A stretch of 51,316 bases of DNA from Sphingosinicella sp. GTDB lineage: Bacteria > Pseudomonadota > Alphaproteobacteria > Sphingomonadales > Sphingomonadaceae. Position 1 is the stretch's first letter. Each line of letters opens with the position of its first letter. The translations under genes and the position numbers were made by a program. This document shows, in pieces, positions 3,798 to 10,593 of this stretch. The notes below the pieces were generated by a model that did no database searches, was not told the origin of the DNA, and saw nothing but the letters and a program-made list of their open reading frames with translations. Location: the NCBI RefSeq assembly GCF_013911755.1, contig NZ_JACESP010000026.1, forward strand, positions 1 to 51,316, given 5' to 3'.

Positions 3798-5125
3798 ACG
3801 GGCAGCGGTCCGTTTATCTTCAGCACATCCCCCGCAAGGTAGAGCGAGCCCGCGATCAGCACCACGGGGGGCGCCTTGCGGTCGGCGGCGTGGCCGATGC
3901 GGCGGAGCGCTTCGTCGACCGACGCGGCGGGAGTCGCGGGCAGCCCCACATCGCCGGCGAGTTTCGCCAGCGCTTCCGGGGGCAGGCAGTCGTGCTCGGG
4001 GATCGGTACGGTGTGTGCCGCCGTCACGCGGCCCGCGAACGCTTTCAGGAAGGCAGCCGCATCCTTGCTCTGGAGCATCCCGAGCACGAGGTGGAACGGC
4101 GTCGCCGCGATATCCTGGGCGCGAAAGGCGTCGACGATGACGCGGGCGGCAGAAGGATTGTGGCCGCCGTCGAGCCAGAGTTCGCTGCCCTGCGGCAGGT
4201 GCGCCACAAGCGGGCCGCTTTCCAGTCGCTGCAGGCGCGCGGGCCATTCCGCCCAGCCCGGCCCGGCGCGCAGCGCCGCGTCCGGCACGGCGAGCGCGCT
4301 CTGGTGGCGCAGCATCGCGGCGGCGAGGCCGACATTGTCGATCTGGTGCGCGCCCGGCAGGCGCGGCATGCCGAGCGTCAGCTTGGCTTTGCTGTCGCGA
4401 TAGTGAAGCTGGTCCTGATAGATGCCCACGTCCCAATCGATGCCGCGCGCGATGATGCGGGCGCCCTTCGGCCCCGCCACCTCGCCGATCGCCGCCGCAA
4501 CCGTTTGCGGGTAGCGAGAGGTGACAAGCGGCACGCCCTTCTTGGCGATACCCGCCTTCTCGCGCGCGATGTCGAGGATTGAATTGCCGAGGAACTGCTG
4601 ATGATCGAGCCCGAGCTGCGCGATGCCGCAGATCGCCGCCGTCGGAAGCACATTCGTCGCATCCCACGTGCCGCCGAGCCCGACCTCGATGACGCAGGCG
4701 TCGGCGGGCGTGCGCGAGAAGGCCGTGAACGCGGCCGCCGTGGTCAGCTCGAAGAAGGTAATCTGCTCGCCGTTGTTGACGCTGATCACATCGTTCAGAA
4801 GCTCGATCAGTTCGCCGTCGGTGATGAGCCGCCCGGCAAGGCGGATGCGCTCATTGAAACGCACCAGATGCGGCGAGGTGAAAACGTGGACGCGGTATCC
4901 CGCCGCCTCAAGGCAAGCGCGCAGGAACGCGGCAGTCGAGCCTTTGCCGTTCGTGCCGGACACGTGAAACACCGGCGGCAGGTGGTGGTGCGGATTGCCG
5001 AGCTTGCCGAGCAGCCGTTCGACGCGGCCGAGCGTCAGGTCGATCAGATTGGGATGCAGCGCCTTCGCCTCGACGAGCAGGGCATCGAGCGCGGGATTTT
5101 CTGACCGGGCCCCCTCGGTCGCCAT
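3794..5125 (-). CDS. folC: Bifunctional folylpolyglutamate synthase / dihydrofolate synthase
   Basis: Cytoplasmic Mur-ligase-fold enzyme that adds glutamate to dihydropteroate and extends folate polyglutamate tails. The ATP P-loop is GTNGKGST at residues 57-64, followed by the TSPHLVRFNERI segment. Further in are the conserved FLGNSILDIAREKAGI helix and the C-terminal WLDGGHN region. At 443 residues the length is normal. It is the last gene of the lapA-pyrF-trpF-trpB-orf-trpA-accD-folC run, 19 bp after accD. The accD-folC pairing is widespread in proteobacteria and supports the call. Confidence 0.95.
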   Translation of the reverse strand: MATEGARSENPALDALLVEAKALHPNLIDLTLGRVERLLGKLGNPHHHLPPVFHVSGTNGKGSTAAFLRACLEAAGYRVHVFTSPHLVRFNERIRLAGRLITDGELIELLNDVISVNNGEQITFFELTTAAAFTAFSRTPADACVIEVGLGGTWDATNVLPTAAICGIAQLGLDHQQFLGNSILDIAREKAGIAKKGVPLVTSRYPQTVAAAIGEVAGPKGARIIARGIDWDVGIYQDQLHYRDSKAKLTLGMPRLPGAHQIDNVGLAAAMLRHQSALAVPDAALRAGPGWAEWPARLQRLESGPLVAHLPQGSELWLDGGHNPSAARVIVDAFRAQDIAATPFHLVLGMLQSKDAAAFLKAFAGRVTAAHTVPIPEHDCLPPEALAKLAGDVGLPATPAASVDEALRRIGHAADRKAPPVVLIAGSLYLAGDVLKINGPLPV

Positions 5126-5144
5126 CAGTGCGGCATCATCCGGT

Positions 5145-6002
5145 TCATGCGGCTTTCGCAGGGGCTTGCGTGAGTATGCCGAGCAGGCTGCCGAGCTGTG
5201 CCTTCAGCCGCTTCCTGTGAACGACCAGATCGACCATGCCGTGCTCGTGCAGATATTCGGCGCGCTGGAAGCCTTCGGGCAGCTTTTCGCGGATCGTCTG
5301 TTCGATGACGCGCTGGCCCGCGAAGCCGATGAGCGCGCCCGGCTCGGCAATATGGACGTCGCCGAGCATTGCGTAGGACGCCGTGACGCCGCCCGTCGTC
5401 GGATCCGTGATGACGACGATGTAGGGCAGCCCCGCCTCGCGCAGCAGCGAGGTAAGCACGGTCGCGCGCGGCATCTGCATCAGGCTGAGGAGCCCCTCCT
5501 GCATCCGCGCGCCGCCCGCCGCGGTGAACACAACGTATGGCGCGCGCGCATCGAGCGCGGCTTCCGCCCCCGCGATGAACGCTTCGCCCACGCCCATGCC
5601 CATCGATCCGCCCATGTAGGCGAAGTTCTGCACGCCGACGACGGCGGGCACGTCCTCGATCCGGCCCTTCGCAACCGCGAACGCCTCGGGGTCTCCGGTC
5701 GCGGCGCGCGCGGCCTTGATGCGATCGGTATATTTCTTCTGGTCGCGGAATTTCAGCGGGTCTTCGGTCACGGACGGGATCGCCAGCCGCTCGTACTTGC
5801 CGCCGTCGAATATCTGCTGGAAGCGCTCCTTCGGGCCGATGCGCTCGTGGAATTCGCAGCGCGGGCAGACGTTCATGTTATCCACCAGTTCGCGGTGGAA
5901 ATTCATCTGACCGCAACCCCGGCATTTCGTCCAGAGATTGTCCGGCGTTTCCTTCTTGGTGAGGAAACTGAGCGCGGGGCGGATGCGTTCGAGCCAGCTC
6001 AT
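5145..6002 (-). CDS. accD: Acetyl-CoA carboxylase carboxyltransferase subunit beta
   Basis: With AccA it transfers the carboxyl group from biotin-BCCP to acetyl-CoA, forming malonyl-CoA for fatty acid synthesis. At the N-terminus a four-cysteine zinc ribbon is visible (C27, C30, C46, C49). The crotonase-fold body carries [12 protein letters not shown] and GGARMQEG, which form the oxyanion and CoA site. Length 285 residues, as usual. The ATG overlaps the trpA stop as ATGA, so translation is probably coupled. accA is not in the window. Confidence 0.97.
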
Positions 6003-6814
6003 GCGGCCTTCTCCCTTGCAGTGGCGAGCGCGGCGGCGAGCCCGGCCACATAATCCTTCACATGCGGTGCGGCACCGGCGCCGTGCGCGGCAACGATATC
6101 AACGATCGCCGAGCCGACGACAACACCGTCCGCAACGCGGCCGATCGCGGCAGCCTGTTCCGGCGTGCGAACGCCGAAGCCGACCGCGACAGGCAAATCC
6201 GTCGCCGCCTTCAGCCGTGCGACAGCGTCTTCGATGCTGCCCTGCGCGGCCTGCTGGAGCCCGGTGATGCCCGCGACCGAAACATAATAGAGGAAGCCGG
6301 ACGCGCCTTCCAGCACGGCGGGCAGCCGCGCGGCGTCCGTCGTCGGCGTCGCCAGCCGGATGAAATCGATCCCCGCCGCGCGCAGCGACGGGCCAAGCTC
6401 GCGGTCTTCCTCTGGCGGCAGGTCGACCGCGATCACGCCGTCCACGCCCGCATCTTTCGCGGCAGCGGCGAACCAATCAGCACCGCGCCGAAGCATCGGG
6501 TTCGCATACCCCATCAGCACGAGCGGCACCTGCGGATGGCGCGCACGGAACGTCTTCGCAATGCCGAGAATATCAGCCGTCGTCGTCCCTGCCCCGAGCG
6601 CACGGAGGTTCGCGCGCTGAATGGCGGGGCCGTCCGCCATAGGATCGGTGAATGGCATCCCGAGCTCGATCACGTCCGCCCCGCCCGCGACGAGCGCGTC
6701 AAGCACGGCGCCCGTGTCGGCAGGCGTCGGATCGCCTCCGGTAACGAAGGTGACAAGCGTCGCGCGGCCTTCGGAGCTGGTGCGGGCGAAGGCGAAAGAA
6801 ATTCTAGTCTGCAT
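5999..6814 (-). CDS. trpA: Tryptophan synthase alpha chain
   Basis: Cleaves indole-3-glycerol phosphate to indole and glyceraldehyde 3-phosphate; indole is tunnelled to TrpB. The TIM barrel of 271 residues has the catalytic acids in place: E50 in DVIELGMPF and D61 in DPMADG. The phosphate-binding glycines near the C-terminus ([18 protein letters not shown]) are also present. The gene is intact although an unrelated membrane gene now lies between it and trpB. Its ATG sits inside the last codons of that gene (11 bp overlap), so trpA translation probably depends on ribosomes finishing it. Confidence 0.97.
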
Positions 6815-7270
6815 TATACGCCCGTTCCAGTGAACTTCGAGCGCCTCTCAAAGTAAGAAAAAAAGTCGGCACTTGGCATACGATAGCGAATGAAAAGAAT
6901 CTGGGGGCACACGTATTGGAATAATCAATTGCAGAATGCATTTGCATTGCCACAAATCCATAATCACAAGATTCTCTAAATGCCCAATGAGCAAAATAGA
7001 ACAATATGCTTACAAAAAAGTAATACCAATAATCATGATAATCATAACATTTTTTTGAACGCAACCTCTCAAGATTTTCATCTACAAAAACACCAAAAAC
7101 AGCACCCCATAAGAGCGGCAATAAAAAAACAAGTGCGGCTATTGTGAGATGAAAGCCTTGATGATCGTAGTCTGGTCCATCACTCAAGATCTTTGTCAGA
7201 ATAAAAACGATCCAGAAGGGCAGAACAGCAAGCACGGCATTCTTCAAAACTGAAACGGCCAGACGCCCCC

Positions 7271-7274
<4 letters not shown>
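6804..7274 (-). CDS. Unrecognised AT-rich four-helix membrane protein between trpB and trpA
   Basis: I do not recognise this protein. The most economical start is a GTG at 7274 that overlaps the trpB stop as GTGA; the stop overlaps the trpA start by 11 bp. This gives 156 residues. Four hydrophobic segments are apparent, at about residues 5-30, 41-64, 79-99 and 126-142. A charged [12 protein letters not shown] loop follows the second, and many Tyr, Trp, Phe and His residues sit around the third ([19 protein letters not shown]). Four cysteines are at about 76, 103, 122 and 133. Base composition is far more AT-rich than trpB and trpA on either side, which suggests recent acquisition. The reading frame is nevertheless free of stops and exactly fitted to both neighbours. 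A longer in-frame extension into trpB exists but is the high-GC shadow of trpB. Confidence 0.72.
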
Positions 7275-8475
<1,201 letters not shown>

Positions 8476-8479
<4 letters not shown>

Positions 8480-9126
8480 CGTGCGCGCACCGCCTCGCAA
8501 AACGCCCTGATCATCGCCGGGGACTTGACGCCCGGCGCATTCTCCACCCCCGACGAAACGTCGACGAGCGGCGCCTGCGTCGTAGCGAGGGCTTCGCCGA
8601 CTGTCGAGGCGTCAAGTCCGCCCGCCAGCCCCCACGGCGCCCCCGGATCAAAGCCCCCGTTGTCCCTGGCAAGCAACCGCCAGTCGAAGCGCACGCCCAT
8701 GCCGCCGGGAAGCGCCGCGCCGGGCGGTGTCTTCGCATCGAACAGGATACGATCGGCGACGCCCGCATACTGCCGCGCCGCGGCGAGATCCGCGCGGGTT
8801 GCGATGGGCAGGGCTTTCCATACCTCGACGCCAAAGCGCGCCTTCACCGCCGCCACGCGGTCCGGCCCCTCGTCCCCGTGAAGCTGCACACCGTCCAGCC
8901 GCGCGGCGCGCACGGCCGCGCCGATCGCCTCGTCGTCGGCGTTCACGAACAGGCCGATACGGCGAATGCCGGACGGCACCACACCGGCAAGTCCGCCCGC
9001 CTCGTCCAGCGAGAGATTGCGCGGGCTTTTCGCGAAGAACACGAAGCCTACATAGTCCGCGCGCCCGGCGGCTGCGGCATCGATCGCGGCACGGTCGCGC
9101 ACGCCGCAGATCTTGATGCGCGCCAT
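8476..9126 (-). CDS. trpF: Phosphoribosylanthranilate isomerase
   Basis: Third committed step of tryptophan synthesis, converting N-(5-phosphoribosyl)anthranilate to the carboxyphenylamino-deoxyribulose phosphate. A compact TIM barrel of 216 residues begins MARIKICGV with catalytic cysteine C7. The general-acid aspartate lies in VDVSSGVE near the C-terminus. The ATG at 9126 is taken as start; a TTG at 9132 overlapping the pyrF stop is an alternative adding two residues. trpC, trpD, trpE and trpG are not in the window. The split trpFBA arrangement with pyrF upstream is usual for alphaproteobacteria. Confidence 0.95.
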
Positions 9127-9128
9127 GC

Positions 9129-9806
9129 TCAAAGGCTCTGAAGGATCGCGTCCGCCGCCGCGCCGGGATCATCGGCGCCGGTGATCGGCCGTCCGATGAC
9201 GAGAATGCTCGCGCCCGCGCCCATCGCCTCGCGCGGCGTCATCACGCGCTTCTGATCGCCGACGGCACTGCCCGACGGGCGGATGCCGGGGACGACGAAG
9301 AAACCTTCCGGCCACGCCGCGCGCATCGCGGCGACTTCATGGGCGGAGCACACAATCCCGTCGAGCCCCGCGCCCTGCGCCAGCACCGCCAGCCTGCGGA
9401 CCTGGTCGGCCGGCGTGCCGATCACGCCGGTGGCGGCCAGATCGTCCTCGTCCATGCTGGTCAACACCGTGACGCCCACGACCTTCGCGCCAGGCCGCGC
9501 CGCATCCTTCGCCGCGCGCATCATCGCGCTGCCGCCGCCCGCATGGACGGTGAGGATGTCGTAGGGGCACGAAGCGAGCGAGCGGACGGCGCCCGCGACA
9601 GTGTTCGGAATGTCATGGAGCTTGAGATCTAGGAAGACAGGCACCCCGCCCTCCCCCGCAACCGCAGCCACGCCCTCGCGGCCGTTCGCCATGAAGAATT
9701 CAAGGCCGAGCTTGATTCCGCCGACGCGGCCCGCGACCCGCATGGCAAGTGCCCGCGCGTGATCCTTGTCGGCCGTATCGACCGCACAGAAGACGGGGTT
9801 GGTCAT
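9129..9806 (-). CDS. pyrF: Orotidine 5'-phosphate decarboxylase
   Basis: Decarboxylates OMP to UMP, the last step of de novo pyrimidine synthesis. The catalytic DxKxxD signature is FLDLKLHDIPNTV. The phosphate-binding loop VVPGIRPSGS and the C-terminal GRPITGADDP complete a normal 225-residue protein. The ATG overlaps the end of the upstream LapA-domain gene by 4 bp (ATGA), and trpF follows within a few bases. This places pyrimidine and tryptophan genes in one transcript. Confidence 0.97.
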   Translation of the reverse strand: MTNPVFCAVDTADKDHARALAMRVAGRVGGIKLGLEFFMANGREGVAAVAGEGGVPVFLDLKLHDIPNTVAGAVRSLASCPYDILTVHAGGGSAMMRAAKDAARPGAKVVGVTVLTSMDEDDLAATGVIGTPADQVRRLAVLAQGAGLDGIVCSAHEVAAMRAAWPEGFFVVPGIRPSGSAVGDQKRVMTPREAMGAGASILVIGRPITGADDPGAAADAILQSL

Positions 9807-10108
9807 AGCGGCGCGATGGGCGGCGGCGGGGCCGGATCCGTGACAGGCGCCGCCTCCGGGGCCTGCGTGTCTTCAAGCGCGCGCTCGAGCTTCTTCACCC
9901 GCCGCGACCAGTGCCAGCGGCTGGTGTAGCGCAGGATCGCGAGCGGAAGTGCGCCGATCAGGAACGTGAGGAGCAGCAGAACGGGGAGCCGGATTGCCAG
10001 CTCGTAATCGCCCCACAGCTTCAGCGTGACGAAATCCCAGTTTCGCGCGGCAAACCAAGCCAGCAGCGCGCCGAACAGGAAGTAGAAGATCAGCGTGACG
10101 ATGCGCAT
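9803..10108 (-). CDS. lapA: LapA-domain (DUF1049) small membrane protein
   Basis: A 101-residue inner-membrane protein with two hydrophobic helices (about residues 3-22 and 40-60), then a basic segment (RWHWSRRVKKLERALED) likely to be a short coiled coil, and a proline-rich tail. This matches LapA/DUF1049 proteins; the E. coli member assists regulation of LPS synthesis together with LapB. No lapB is adjacent here. It is the first gene of the pyrF-trp operon and lies downstream of ihfB, an order I recall from other alphaproteobacteria. Its specific role in this group is not established. Confidence 0.85.
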   Translation of the reverse strand: MRIVTLIFYFLFGALLAWFAARNWDFVTLKLWGDYELAIRLPVLLLLTFLIGALPLAILRYTSRWHWSRRVKKLERALEDTQAPEAAPVTDPAPPPPIAPL

Positions 10109-10148
10109 GATCTCTGCTTAACGGACACGTGGACACGATGCCAGCGCC

Positions 10149-10169
10149 GATGGCGCATAAACCGCCATC
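10149..10169 (-). other. Short hairpin between ihfB and lapA
   Basis: A perfect 7-bp inverted repeat, GATGGCG / CGCCATC, with a 7-base loop, lies in the 78-bp gap between ihfB and lapA. There is no T-run after it on the minus strand, so it is not a standard terminator. It may modulate read-through from ihfB into the pyrF-trp genes or protect a 3' end. Confidence 0.3.
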
Positions 10170-10186
10170 AGTGCTCGGGGCTCCGC

Positions 10187-10465
10187 TTATTTGTTGAGCC
10201 GCTCGCGCAGTTCCTTGCCCGCCTTGAAATACGGTACGCGCTTCGCATCCACGGCCACCTTTTCGCCGGTGCGGGGATTGCGCCCCGTCCGCGGATCGCG
10301 GCCGCGCGTAGAAAAAGCGCCGAAACCACGCAGTTCCACGCGGCGTCCTTCGGCGAGCGCCTCCGAAATCGAATCGAAAATGGTCGATACGACGCGTTCA
10401 ACATCCCGCTGCGACAAATGCGGGTTCATTTCCGTGACTGCTGCGACGAGTTCAGATCGAATCAT
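10187..10465 (-). CDS. ihfB: Integration host factor subunit beta
   Basis: DNA-bending architectural protein that forms a heterodimer with IhfA. The 92-residue protein begins [10 protein letters not shown]. It carries the conserved body [16 protein letters not shown] and the beta-arm signature [10 protein letters not shown], whose proline intercalates into DNA. The location just downstream of rpsA is the classic cmk-rpsA-ihfB order and separates it from HupB and IhfA. It is separated from rpsA by about 190 bp containing a terminator-like hairpin, so it probably has its own promoter. Confidence 0.95.
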
Positions 10466-10593
10466 CTCTCACCCCGTTTCTCGAGCCCCAATTTTTTGTT
10501 CAAAACACCTTGCGGGCCACCCAGCACGGCCCGGGTCCACTGTCCCCCGACTCGGTCCGCGCAAATCATACAACAGCTTGAGCAAGTTAACAA

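Follow-up and report, generated by a model that had tools for sequence, protein, structure and literature searches.

In textbooks, tryptophan synthase serves as the classic example of two enzymes encoded by genes that remain adjacent and overlapping. The trp operon of actinobacteria also encodes a membrane protein, Trp_oprn_chp (PF09534 / TIGR02234). Extra genes close to trpB and trpA have been described in several groups of bacteria. For example, unknown genes lie between trpB and trpA in Burkholderia, where the gene order is F-B-X-A, in some Flavobacterium, and in one marine contig from the Sargasso Sea (PMC2395257). The X gene of the split trpFBA operon was found in all Burkholderia genomes then known, and the accessible part of that source does not call it a membrane protein (PMC2395257). 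In Streptomyces coelicolor, the trpCXBA operon contains a small ORF of unknown function beside trpB and trpA, TrpM or trpX (SCO2038), whose knockout mutant shows slow growth on minimal medium, a defect that tryptophan, serine or indole relieves; it is placed before trpB and shows high conservation across streptomycetes, and the accessible sections of the paper do not call it a membrane protein (PMC5036795). A literature search, judged by titles and the starts of abstracts and covering few subscription papers, returned no account of a slot with changing membrane proteins; among the papers listed, PMC2395257 is the one seen to treat genes that intervene between trpB and trpA.

Here we analyze a gene of this kind in Sphingosinicella sp. 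The window, by which we mean the whole stretch of 51,316 nucleotides under analysis, carries on its minus strand the genes trpF, trpB, an ORF, trpA, accD and folC, in that order; the names of trpF, accD and the other operon genes are our assignments from operon order and family knowledge. The reading that we prefer, with a probability of about 0.6, is that in Sphingomonadaceae small membrane proteins that evolve fast occupy a translationally coupled slot at the trpB-trpA junction, and that the window ORF fills it in this species. ('Sphingomonadaceae' is used here as a family grouping; NCBI places one of the closest relatives, locus L048, in Sphingosinicellaceae.) Like the Burkholderia X gene, the window ORF is an additional gene with no assigned role that lies between trpB and trpA of a split trpFBA operon. 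Compared with X as described, the slot differs in holding many mutually unrelated small membrane ORFs, fitted by exact overlaps and turned over within one family. TrpM shares the setting of a small ORF in an operon with trpB and trpA, but the window ORF follows trpB. Trp_oprn_chp is likewise a membrane protein of a trp operon, but the window ORF has no Pfam match to it.

Table 1. Features of the trpB-trpA junction and its neighbours in the window.
Feature	Position	Strand	Remarks
trpF, upstream operon gene	8476..9132	minus	presumed from operon order and family knowledge
trpB (tryptophan synthase beta)	7271..8500	minus	93-97% identical to three same-genus genomes
GTGA overlap, ORF start with trpB stop (TGA)	7271..7274	minus	read from the sequence
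Probable remnant of ancestral trpA 5' end (start codon and ~5 codons), now ORF start	7257..7274	minus	11/14 nt match with L048 trpA start, 8/14 with G150; sister junctions
Orphan membrane-protein ORF	6804..7274	minus	156 aa; GTG start, TAG stop; longer than 200/200 shuffles
Hydrophobic segment 1, residues ~7-28	7191..7256	minus	Kyte-Doolittle 2.2; helix in low-confidence model
Hydrophobic segment 2, residues ~42-62	7089..7151	minus	Kyte-Doolittle 2.4; helix in low-confidence model
Weak hydrophobic segment 3, aromatic-rich, residues ~82-99	6978..7031	minus	Kyte-Doolittle only 0.86; helix in low-confidence model
Weak hydrophobic segment 4, residues ~126-145	6840..6899	minus	Kyte-Doolittle 1.35; helix in low-confidence model; two cysteines (103, 122) in the stretch before it
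11-nt overlap, ORF stop with trpA ATG start at 6814	6804..6814	minus	same 11-nt geometry in G242
trpA (tryptophan synthase alpha)	5999..6814	minus	N-terminus MQTRIS; 91-94% identical to four same-genus genomes
accD, downstream operon gene	5145..6002	minus	4-nt overlap with trpA; presumed from operon order and family knowledge

The initial annotation described a 156-codon frame that begins in a GTGA overlap with trpB and stops 11 nt inside trpA, and these positions are confirmed (Table 1). Overlaps of the type expected to couple translation, which it had also pointed out, are present at both ends. Upstream, the same frame extends without a stop to a GTG at 7439 within trpB (211 aa); its start is predicted to lie at 7274, because that position fits coupling with the trpB stop. 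Dinucleotide shuffles of the insert never produced an ORF of equal length (0/200), and the other frames across the region contain 8 and 9 stops (sense) and 5, 6 and 14 stops (antisense). Overall G+C is ~41%, with values by codon position of 0.48/0.38/0.36 in the ORF, 0.69/0.43/0.88 in trpB and 0.74/0.55/0.77 in trpA, and the commonest codons are TTT and TAT. The claim that G+C falls far below that of both neighbours holds, with the lowest 200-nt window in the ORF at 0.325 (33%) against 0.63-0.73 inside trpB and trpA. Four hydrophobic segments had been proposed for the protein; 19-residue Kyte-Doolittle maxima support two of them as strong and leave the other two weak, and the protein passes the transmembrane criterion used here (19-residue mean >=1.6) with 2.45. 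Aromatic residues make up 19.9% of it, and there are four cysteines. A single-sequence AlphaFold2 model is helical, with long helices at 2-31, 38-71, 79-99 and 127-155, at a mean pLDDT of only 56.9. The ORF is a real membrane-type gene, foreign in composition and overlapping its neighbours at both ends.

The protein is present in a single copy in its own genome, and searches for relatives elsewhere were negative. Among 396 other genomes of the family the best match had E 0.0056, over 41 residues with an internal stop, and the genome_contigs search, which covers close relatives only, gave no match. No relative was found in phages, plasmids, viral contigs or PHROGs, so that no donor could be named and the relative in a phage or viral contig that would mark a phage moron was not seen; NCBIfam and PDB also gave no match. 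Trp_oprn_chp (PF09534) was absent from the Pfam matches at E up to 10, where HMMER filters drop most matches above ~0.1. DUF6338 (PF19865) was considered as an identity for the ORF and rejected, since its 19.5 bits (E 7.8e-4) lie below the curated cut-off of 26.5 bits; one of nine block-shuffled ORF proteins reached E 1.3e-3 with another family, and in 118 genomes of the order a single match exceeded the cut-off, which was not the window ORF. At the DNA level, Rfam had no match at 5000-10500, and no repeats of the kind found at mobile-element ends flank the ORF beyond short pairs taken for chance. By sequence comparison, the window ORF is an orphan, with no relative in the searches run.

Within the genus, the junction differs between closely related species. 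In two sister species (genomes G201 and G150) the ORF is absent, and trpA starts in the trpB stop in a clean junction with one GTGA; where these have the overlapping GTGA, the window has ~450 nt of A+T-rich open DNA. The locus L048, Sphingosinicella microcystinivorans, has a TrpA 93% identical and is taken as the same sister as G201. When the 14 nt after the GTGA of the ORF were compared with the trpA start of L048, 11 of 14 matched, the best among 211 junctions (100 clean ones with a mean of 5.4, and 111 with gaps >=60 nt with a mean of 3.9); the second sister, G150, matches at only 8 of the 14. The comparison suggests that the ORF took over the old GTG start of trpA, and that trpA gained a new ATG. 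In a third sister genome, G242, whose TrpA is 94% identical to that of the window, the contig stops 70 nt from the end of the ORF, within the junction. Of 63 junction ORFs, the window ORF is the best match to the final 22 residues of the partial frame left upstream of trpA (score 9, the next 2; shuffle p 0.0085), and this frame overlaps trpA by the same 11 nt. Though the match is short, the fragment may be the end of the same gene, which would then not be brand-new. The recent origin or transfer initially proposed is consistent with the absence of the ORF in G201 and G150, and is weakened by the possible presence of its end in G242; no donor was found in phages, plasmids, viral contigs or the other family genomes. 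An assembly error at the junction does not seem to be indicated; the G242 fragment ends in the same geometry. Elsewhere in the genus, genome G085 (L047, 4700-4800) has short G+C-rich palindromic repeats in the junction, with a 37-codon frame open from stop to start. The G277 contig breaks off at the end of trpB. Two incomplete same-genus genomes, G242 (contig C122) and G277 (contig C644), are both broken at or beside the trpB-trpA junction, as might occur if the junction varies within the population.

Two samples of the family were used to survey this junction, in which a clean junction was defined as <60 nt. Sample A comprised the 80 named loci nearest in TrpA together with G150 and G085, giving 82 with both genes. 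Sample B was an even draw of 147 genomes, 144 of them with TrpA, from which the own genome and the 13 weakest TrpA matches were left out, so that 130 loci were used and 129 had both genes; seven identical inserts are common to the two samples. In sample B, 69 junctions are clean, two measure 60-99 nt and 58 hold an insert of >=100 nt, so that the insert in the window is one of many and the premise that trpB and trpA are nearly always adjacent fails in this family. A membrane ORF is found in 33 of the 129 (L232 dropped) and a DUF559 gene in at least 8, by a strict motif that leaves three DUF559-like ORFs (L167, L182, L187) among the 'other' inserts. Sample A has 31 clean junctions, 2 at 60-99 nt, 28 with a membrane ORF (L053 included), 11 with DUF559 and 10 others. 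Outside the family, among the matches listed in a class-wide search, only 1 of 56 junctions reaches 100 nt and none reaches 150 nt. This control took the better-matching half of 116 matching non-family genomes, with 49 junctions measured from coordinates and 7 contiguous; G540 and G453, where TrpB and TrpA matched at widely separated places or on separate contigs, were left out.

Inserts are also concentrated at this junction compared with others in the operon. In sample A, inserts of >=150 nt occur in 43/82 loci at trpB-trpA, 11/76 at trpF-trpB, 6/77 at trpA-accD and 6/75 at accD-folC. The contrast is weaker for gaps of >=60 nt (49/82, 33/76, 7/77 and 33/75, in the same order). A membrane ORF is the longest sense ORF in 24/82, 3/76, 0/77 and 0/75, respectively; this count used ends cut at a fixed point, and its first value is therefore lower than the 28 of 49 inserts obtained with the window included. 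At trpF-trpB, an antisense membrane ORF of 152-273 aa is present in 8 of 76 loci, for example L075, L100, L117, L125 and L126.

The inserts have several properties of genes. Among 81 distinct non-DUF559 inserts, the longest frame is a membrane ORF in the sense direction in 57 and in the antisense direction in 1; shuffles of the same inserts gave a mean of 3.6 and at most 9 sense membrane ORFs, with a GTGA start prefixed to every insert and every shuffle. For counts of starts, open frames and codons, L053 (secreted-type) and L232 (not membrane-like) were dropped from the membrane set, which left 60 ORFs; 44 of these start exactly at an NTGA overlap and 43 fit tightly at both ends. Where an insert begins with an NTGA start, the frame is open from the trpB stop to the trpA start in 38 of 52 membrane inserts (5.9 expected from shuffles) and in 16 of 20 other non-DUF559 inserts (7.0 expected), 54 of 72 in total; none of nine DUF559 inserts with NTGA is open throughout. 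From this we infer that most kinds of insert are favoured if they leave the ribosome path between trpB and trpA unbroken, and that this accounts for the exact fit of the window ORF between the two genes.

Occupants of the slot fall into small families or stand alone. At blastp E <1e-3, 22 of 63 membrane ORFs are linked into eight small groups and the rest have no relative among the set; no alignment column is common to all 60, and a Pfam search of these 60 gave nothing better than E 0.0019, with Trp_oprn_chp not matched at E 0.01. Some families span several genera at ~23-46% identity. A search of 298 genomes located one of them, termed here the 4-TM family, in 8 genomes from 7 genera, the query's own included, in all eight cases between trpB and trpA; four of these eight genomes have junctions outside the loci sampled earlier. 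Its members are L202, L210, L214, L215, L235, L271, L272, L275 and L276, L215 being a ninth added by blastp. The family, as seen in L269-L276, has a YRxKLLNWLTSM-like start, and most members carry a WHxxD motif and a pair of cysteines ahead of the final segment. In L272, trpB and the 4-TM ORF are separated by a short second TrpB-like stretch (1969-2073; 51% identical, residues 362-396). With full members of ~160-190 aa, several hydrophobic segments and, in most, two cysteines before the last of these, the family resembles the window ORF in layout and position, but there is no detectable sequence relation. Membership of the window ORF in this family (the L202 group), made tempting by the layout and a five-row alignment, was rejected by profile searches built from five and then nine members; in the nine-member search, 456 of 500 block-shuffled copies of the window protein scored as high as the protein itself. 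A second occupant, the ORF of L113 (Sphingopyxis sp. Root154), had one strong relative in the 298 genomes (E 2e-12), at the same junction; another match (E 0.0045), away from trp, is not convincing. The confinement of the two searched families to the junction suggests a link to tryptophan synthase.

Estimates of selection and of turnover are available for other occupants; the window ORF is not among the pairs. The dN/dS ratio is 0.07 for L105/L113 (dS 1.26) and 0.12 for L211/L244 (dS 0.47), and by these substitution ratios both pairs are under strong purifying selection. Three more distant pairs gave 0.26, 0.32 and 0.42, and three further pairs were saturated. On a FastTree tree of TrpB with 202 rows, the membrane state changes at least 40 times, 21 of these changes being forced by well-supported branches; shuffles required a mean of 52.4, and 0 of 500 were as low as 40. 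The occupants thus come and go but are partly inherited. In six loci (L049, L095, L105, L113, L114 and L123), TrpB is 90-93% identical to that of the window and TrpA only 72-81%, most other loci outside the genus having a TrpB 74-82% identical; the mismatch hints at transfer or recombination of trpB alone.

Several further leads were followed across the junction ORFs. The pattern C-x(2-30)-C-x(0-2)-P occurs in 9 of 63 ORFs, whereas 500 shuffles averaged 2.5 and never exceeded 7. A shared two-cysteine loop nevertheless remains a lead only, as four of the nine matches belong to one family and L232 is not membrane-like. Tryptophan, examined for the idea of an attenuator, makes up 2.9% of residues in 61 junction ORFs, a figure that lacks a fair background for small membrane proteins. 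PADLOC gave no defence match for three representative occupants. The DUF559 endonuclease-like genes of sample A lie in 11 of 82 junctions (L051, L052, L075, L076, L082, L084, L093, L101, L107, L110 and L127). At their ends they have what read as 'LSPxGER'-type repeats, and L090 carries a relative elsewhere, at 9041-9403; these genes look like mobile cassettes that favour the trpB-trpA junction.

Different explanations can be proposed for these observations. The junction may be a permissive insertion site unrelated to tryptophan, in which inserts with an open frame survive best and the membrane protein travels as a passenger, or as moron-like or selfish cargo that depends on the expression of the operon. 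We regard this as possible, at odds well short of even: entry of DUF559 cassettes and of repeat-like or other DNA, seen in both samples, suits a permissive site as well, as do the high turnover of occupants and the open frames kept by most non-membrane inserts, and a moron origin was raised for genes between trpB and trpA in the accessible part of PMC2395257. Such a site would not lead one to expect the excess of membrane ORFs over shuffles, purifying selection in two occupant pairs, strong relatives of the two searched ORFs only at this junction, or the scarcity of sense membrane ORFs at the other three operon junctions (3/228). The same selection bears on a plainer view, in which the insertion is non-coding and its open frame is a mere translational bridge for a protein without function. 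The open bridges of 16 of 20 non-membrane inserts are in keeping with this, but the length of the window ORF and the membrane ORFs as a class both exceed shuffles, and two pairs of other occupants have dN/dS ratios well under 1, which makes it improbable. An open path alone would not account for the excess of membrane proteins or for the purifying selection; these call for a product that matters.

It is also conceivable that such genes are born in place, when inserted or slipped A+T-rich open DNA becomes a membrane protein by default, since T-rich reading frames encode hydrophobic residues; many occupants would then be independent births and not transfers. The absence of any relative of the window ORF in the searches run, the minority of membrane ORFs with a relative among the others and the prevalence of TTT and TAT codons agree with this, but dinucleotide-keeping shuffles rarely give membrane ORFs, families spread over several genera at such low identity imply age, and the G242 fragment points to a gene older than one species split. 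We therefore consider birth in place unlikely, if somewhat less so than the bridge. Points that count against the coupled slot itself are that the window ORF has no demonstrated relative and falls outside the 4-TM family, that about half of sample B is clean, that gain and loss are frequent, that DUF559 and repeat-like inserts share the junction, that gaps of >=60 nt also abound at trpF-trpB and accD-folC, that the weak second match of the L113 ORF is away from trp, that G150 agrees with the ORF start at 8 of 14 nt only, and that the 60 membrane ORFs have no column in common. Families restricted to the junction, and purifying selection on other occupants, weigh against a neutral passenger at those loci, without telling apart the roles initially proposed (transporter, sensor, tether or selfish gene).

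For the coupled slot, a sequence of events can be suggested. DNA would have entered just behind the old trpA start, the newcomer would have taken over that start, and an ATG at the far end of the inserted DNA would have become the new start of trpA. After terminating at trpB, ribosomes would re-initiate on the ORF and, at its end, again on trpA, which would keep the two synthase subunits in step. The product, produced in a constant ratio to TrpB and TrpA, could assist tryptophan synthesis at its membrane face, by handling indole or tryptophan or by holding the synthase or its mRNA at the membrane. It must be dispensable, because about half of sample B (69/129) has a clean junction.

The findings point to the window ORF as a previously undescribed partner of the tryptophan synthase operon, or a passenger on it. 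A more specific proposal, which we make tentatively and rate as doubtful, is that the tryptophan synthase of Sphingomonadaceae has a fast-evolving small membrane partner, made in strict ratio with TrpB and TrpA, that holds the complex at the membrane or handles indole or tryptophan and has been repeatedly replaced by unrelated proteins. As one genus contains both clean and occupied sister species, the effect of the occupant is directly testable. A slot in which the membrane proteins change and the ribosome path is mostly kept provides natural experiments on translational coupling, and bears on how genes enter operons and on a possible membrane side of tryptophan synthase.
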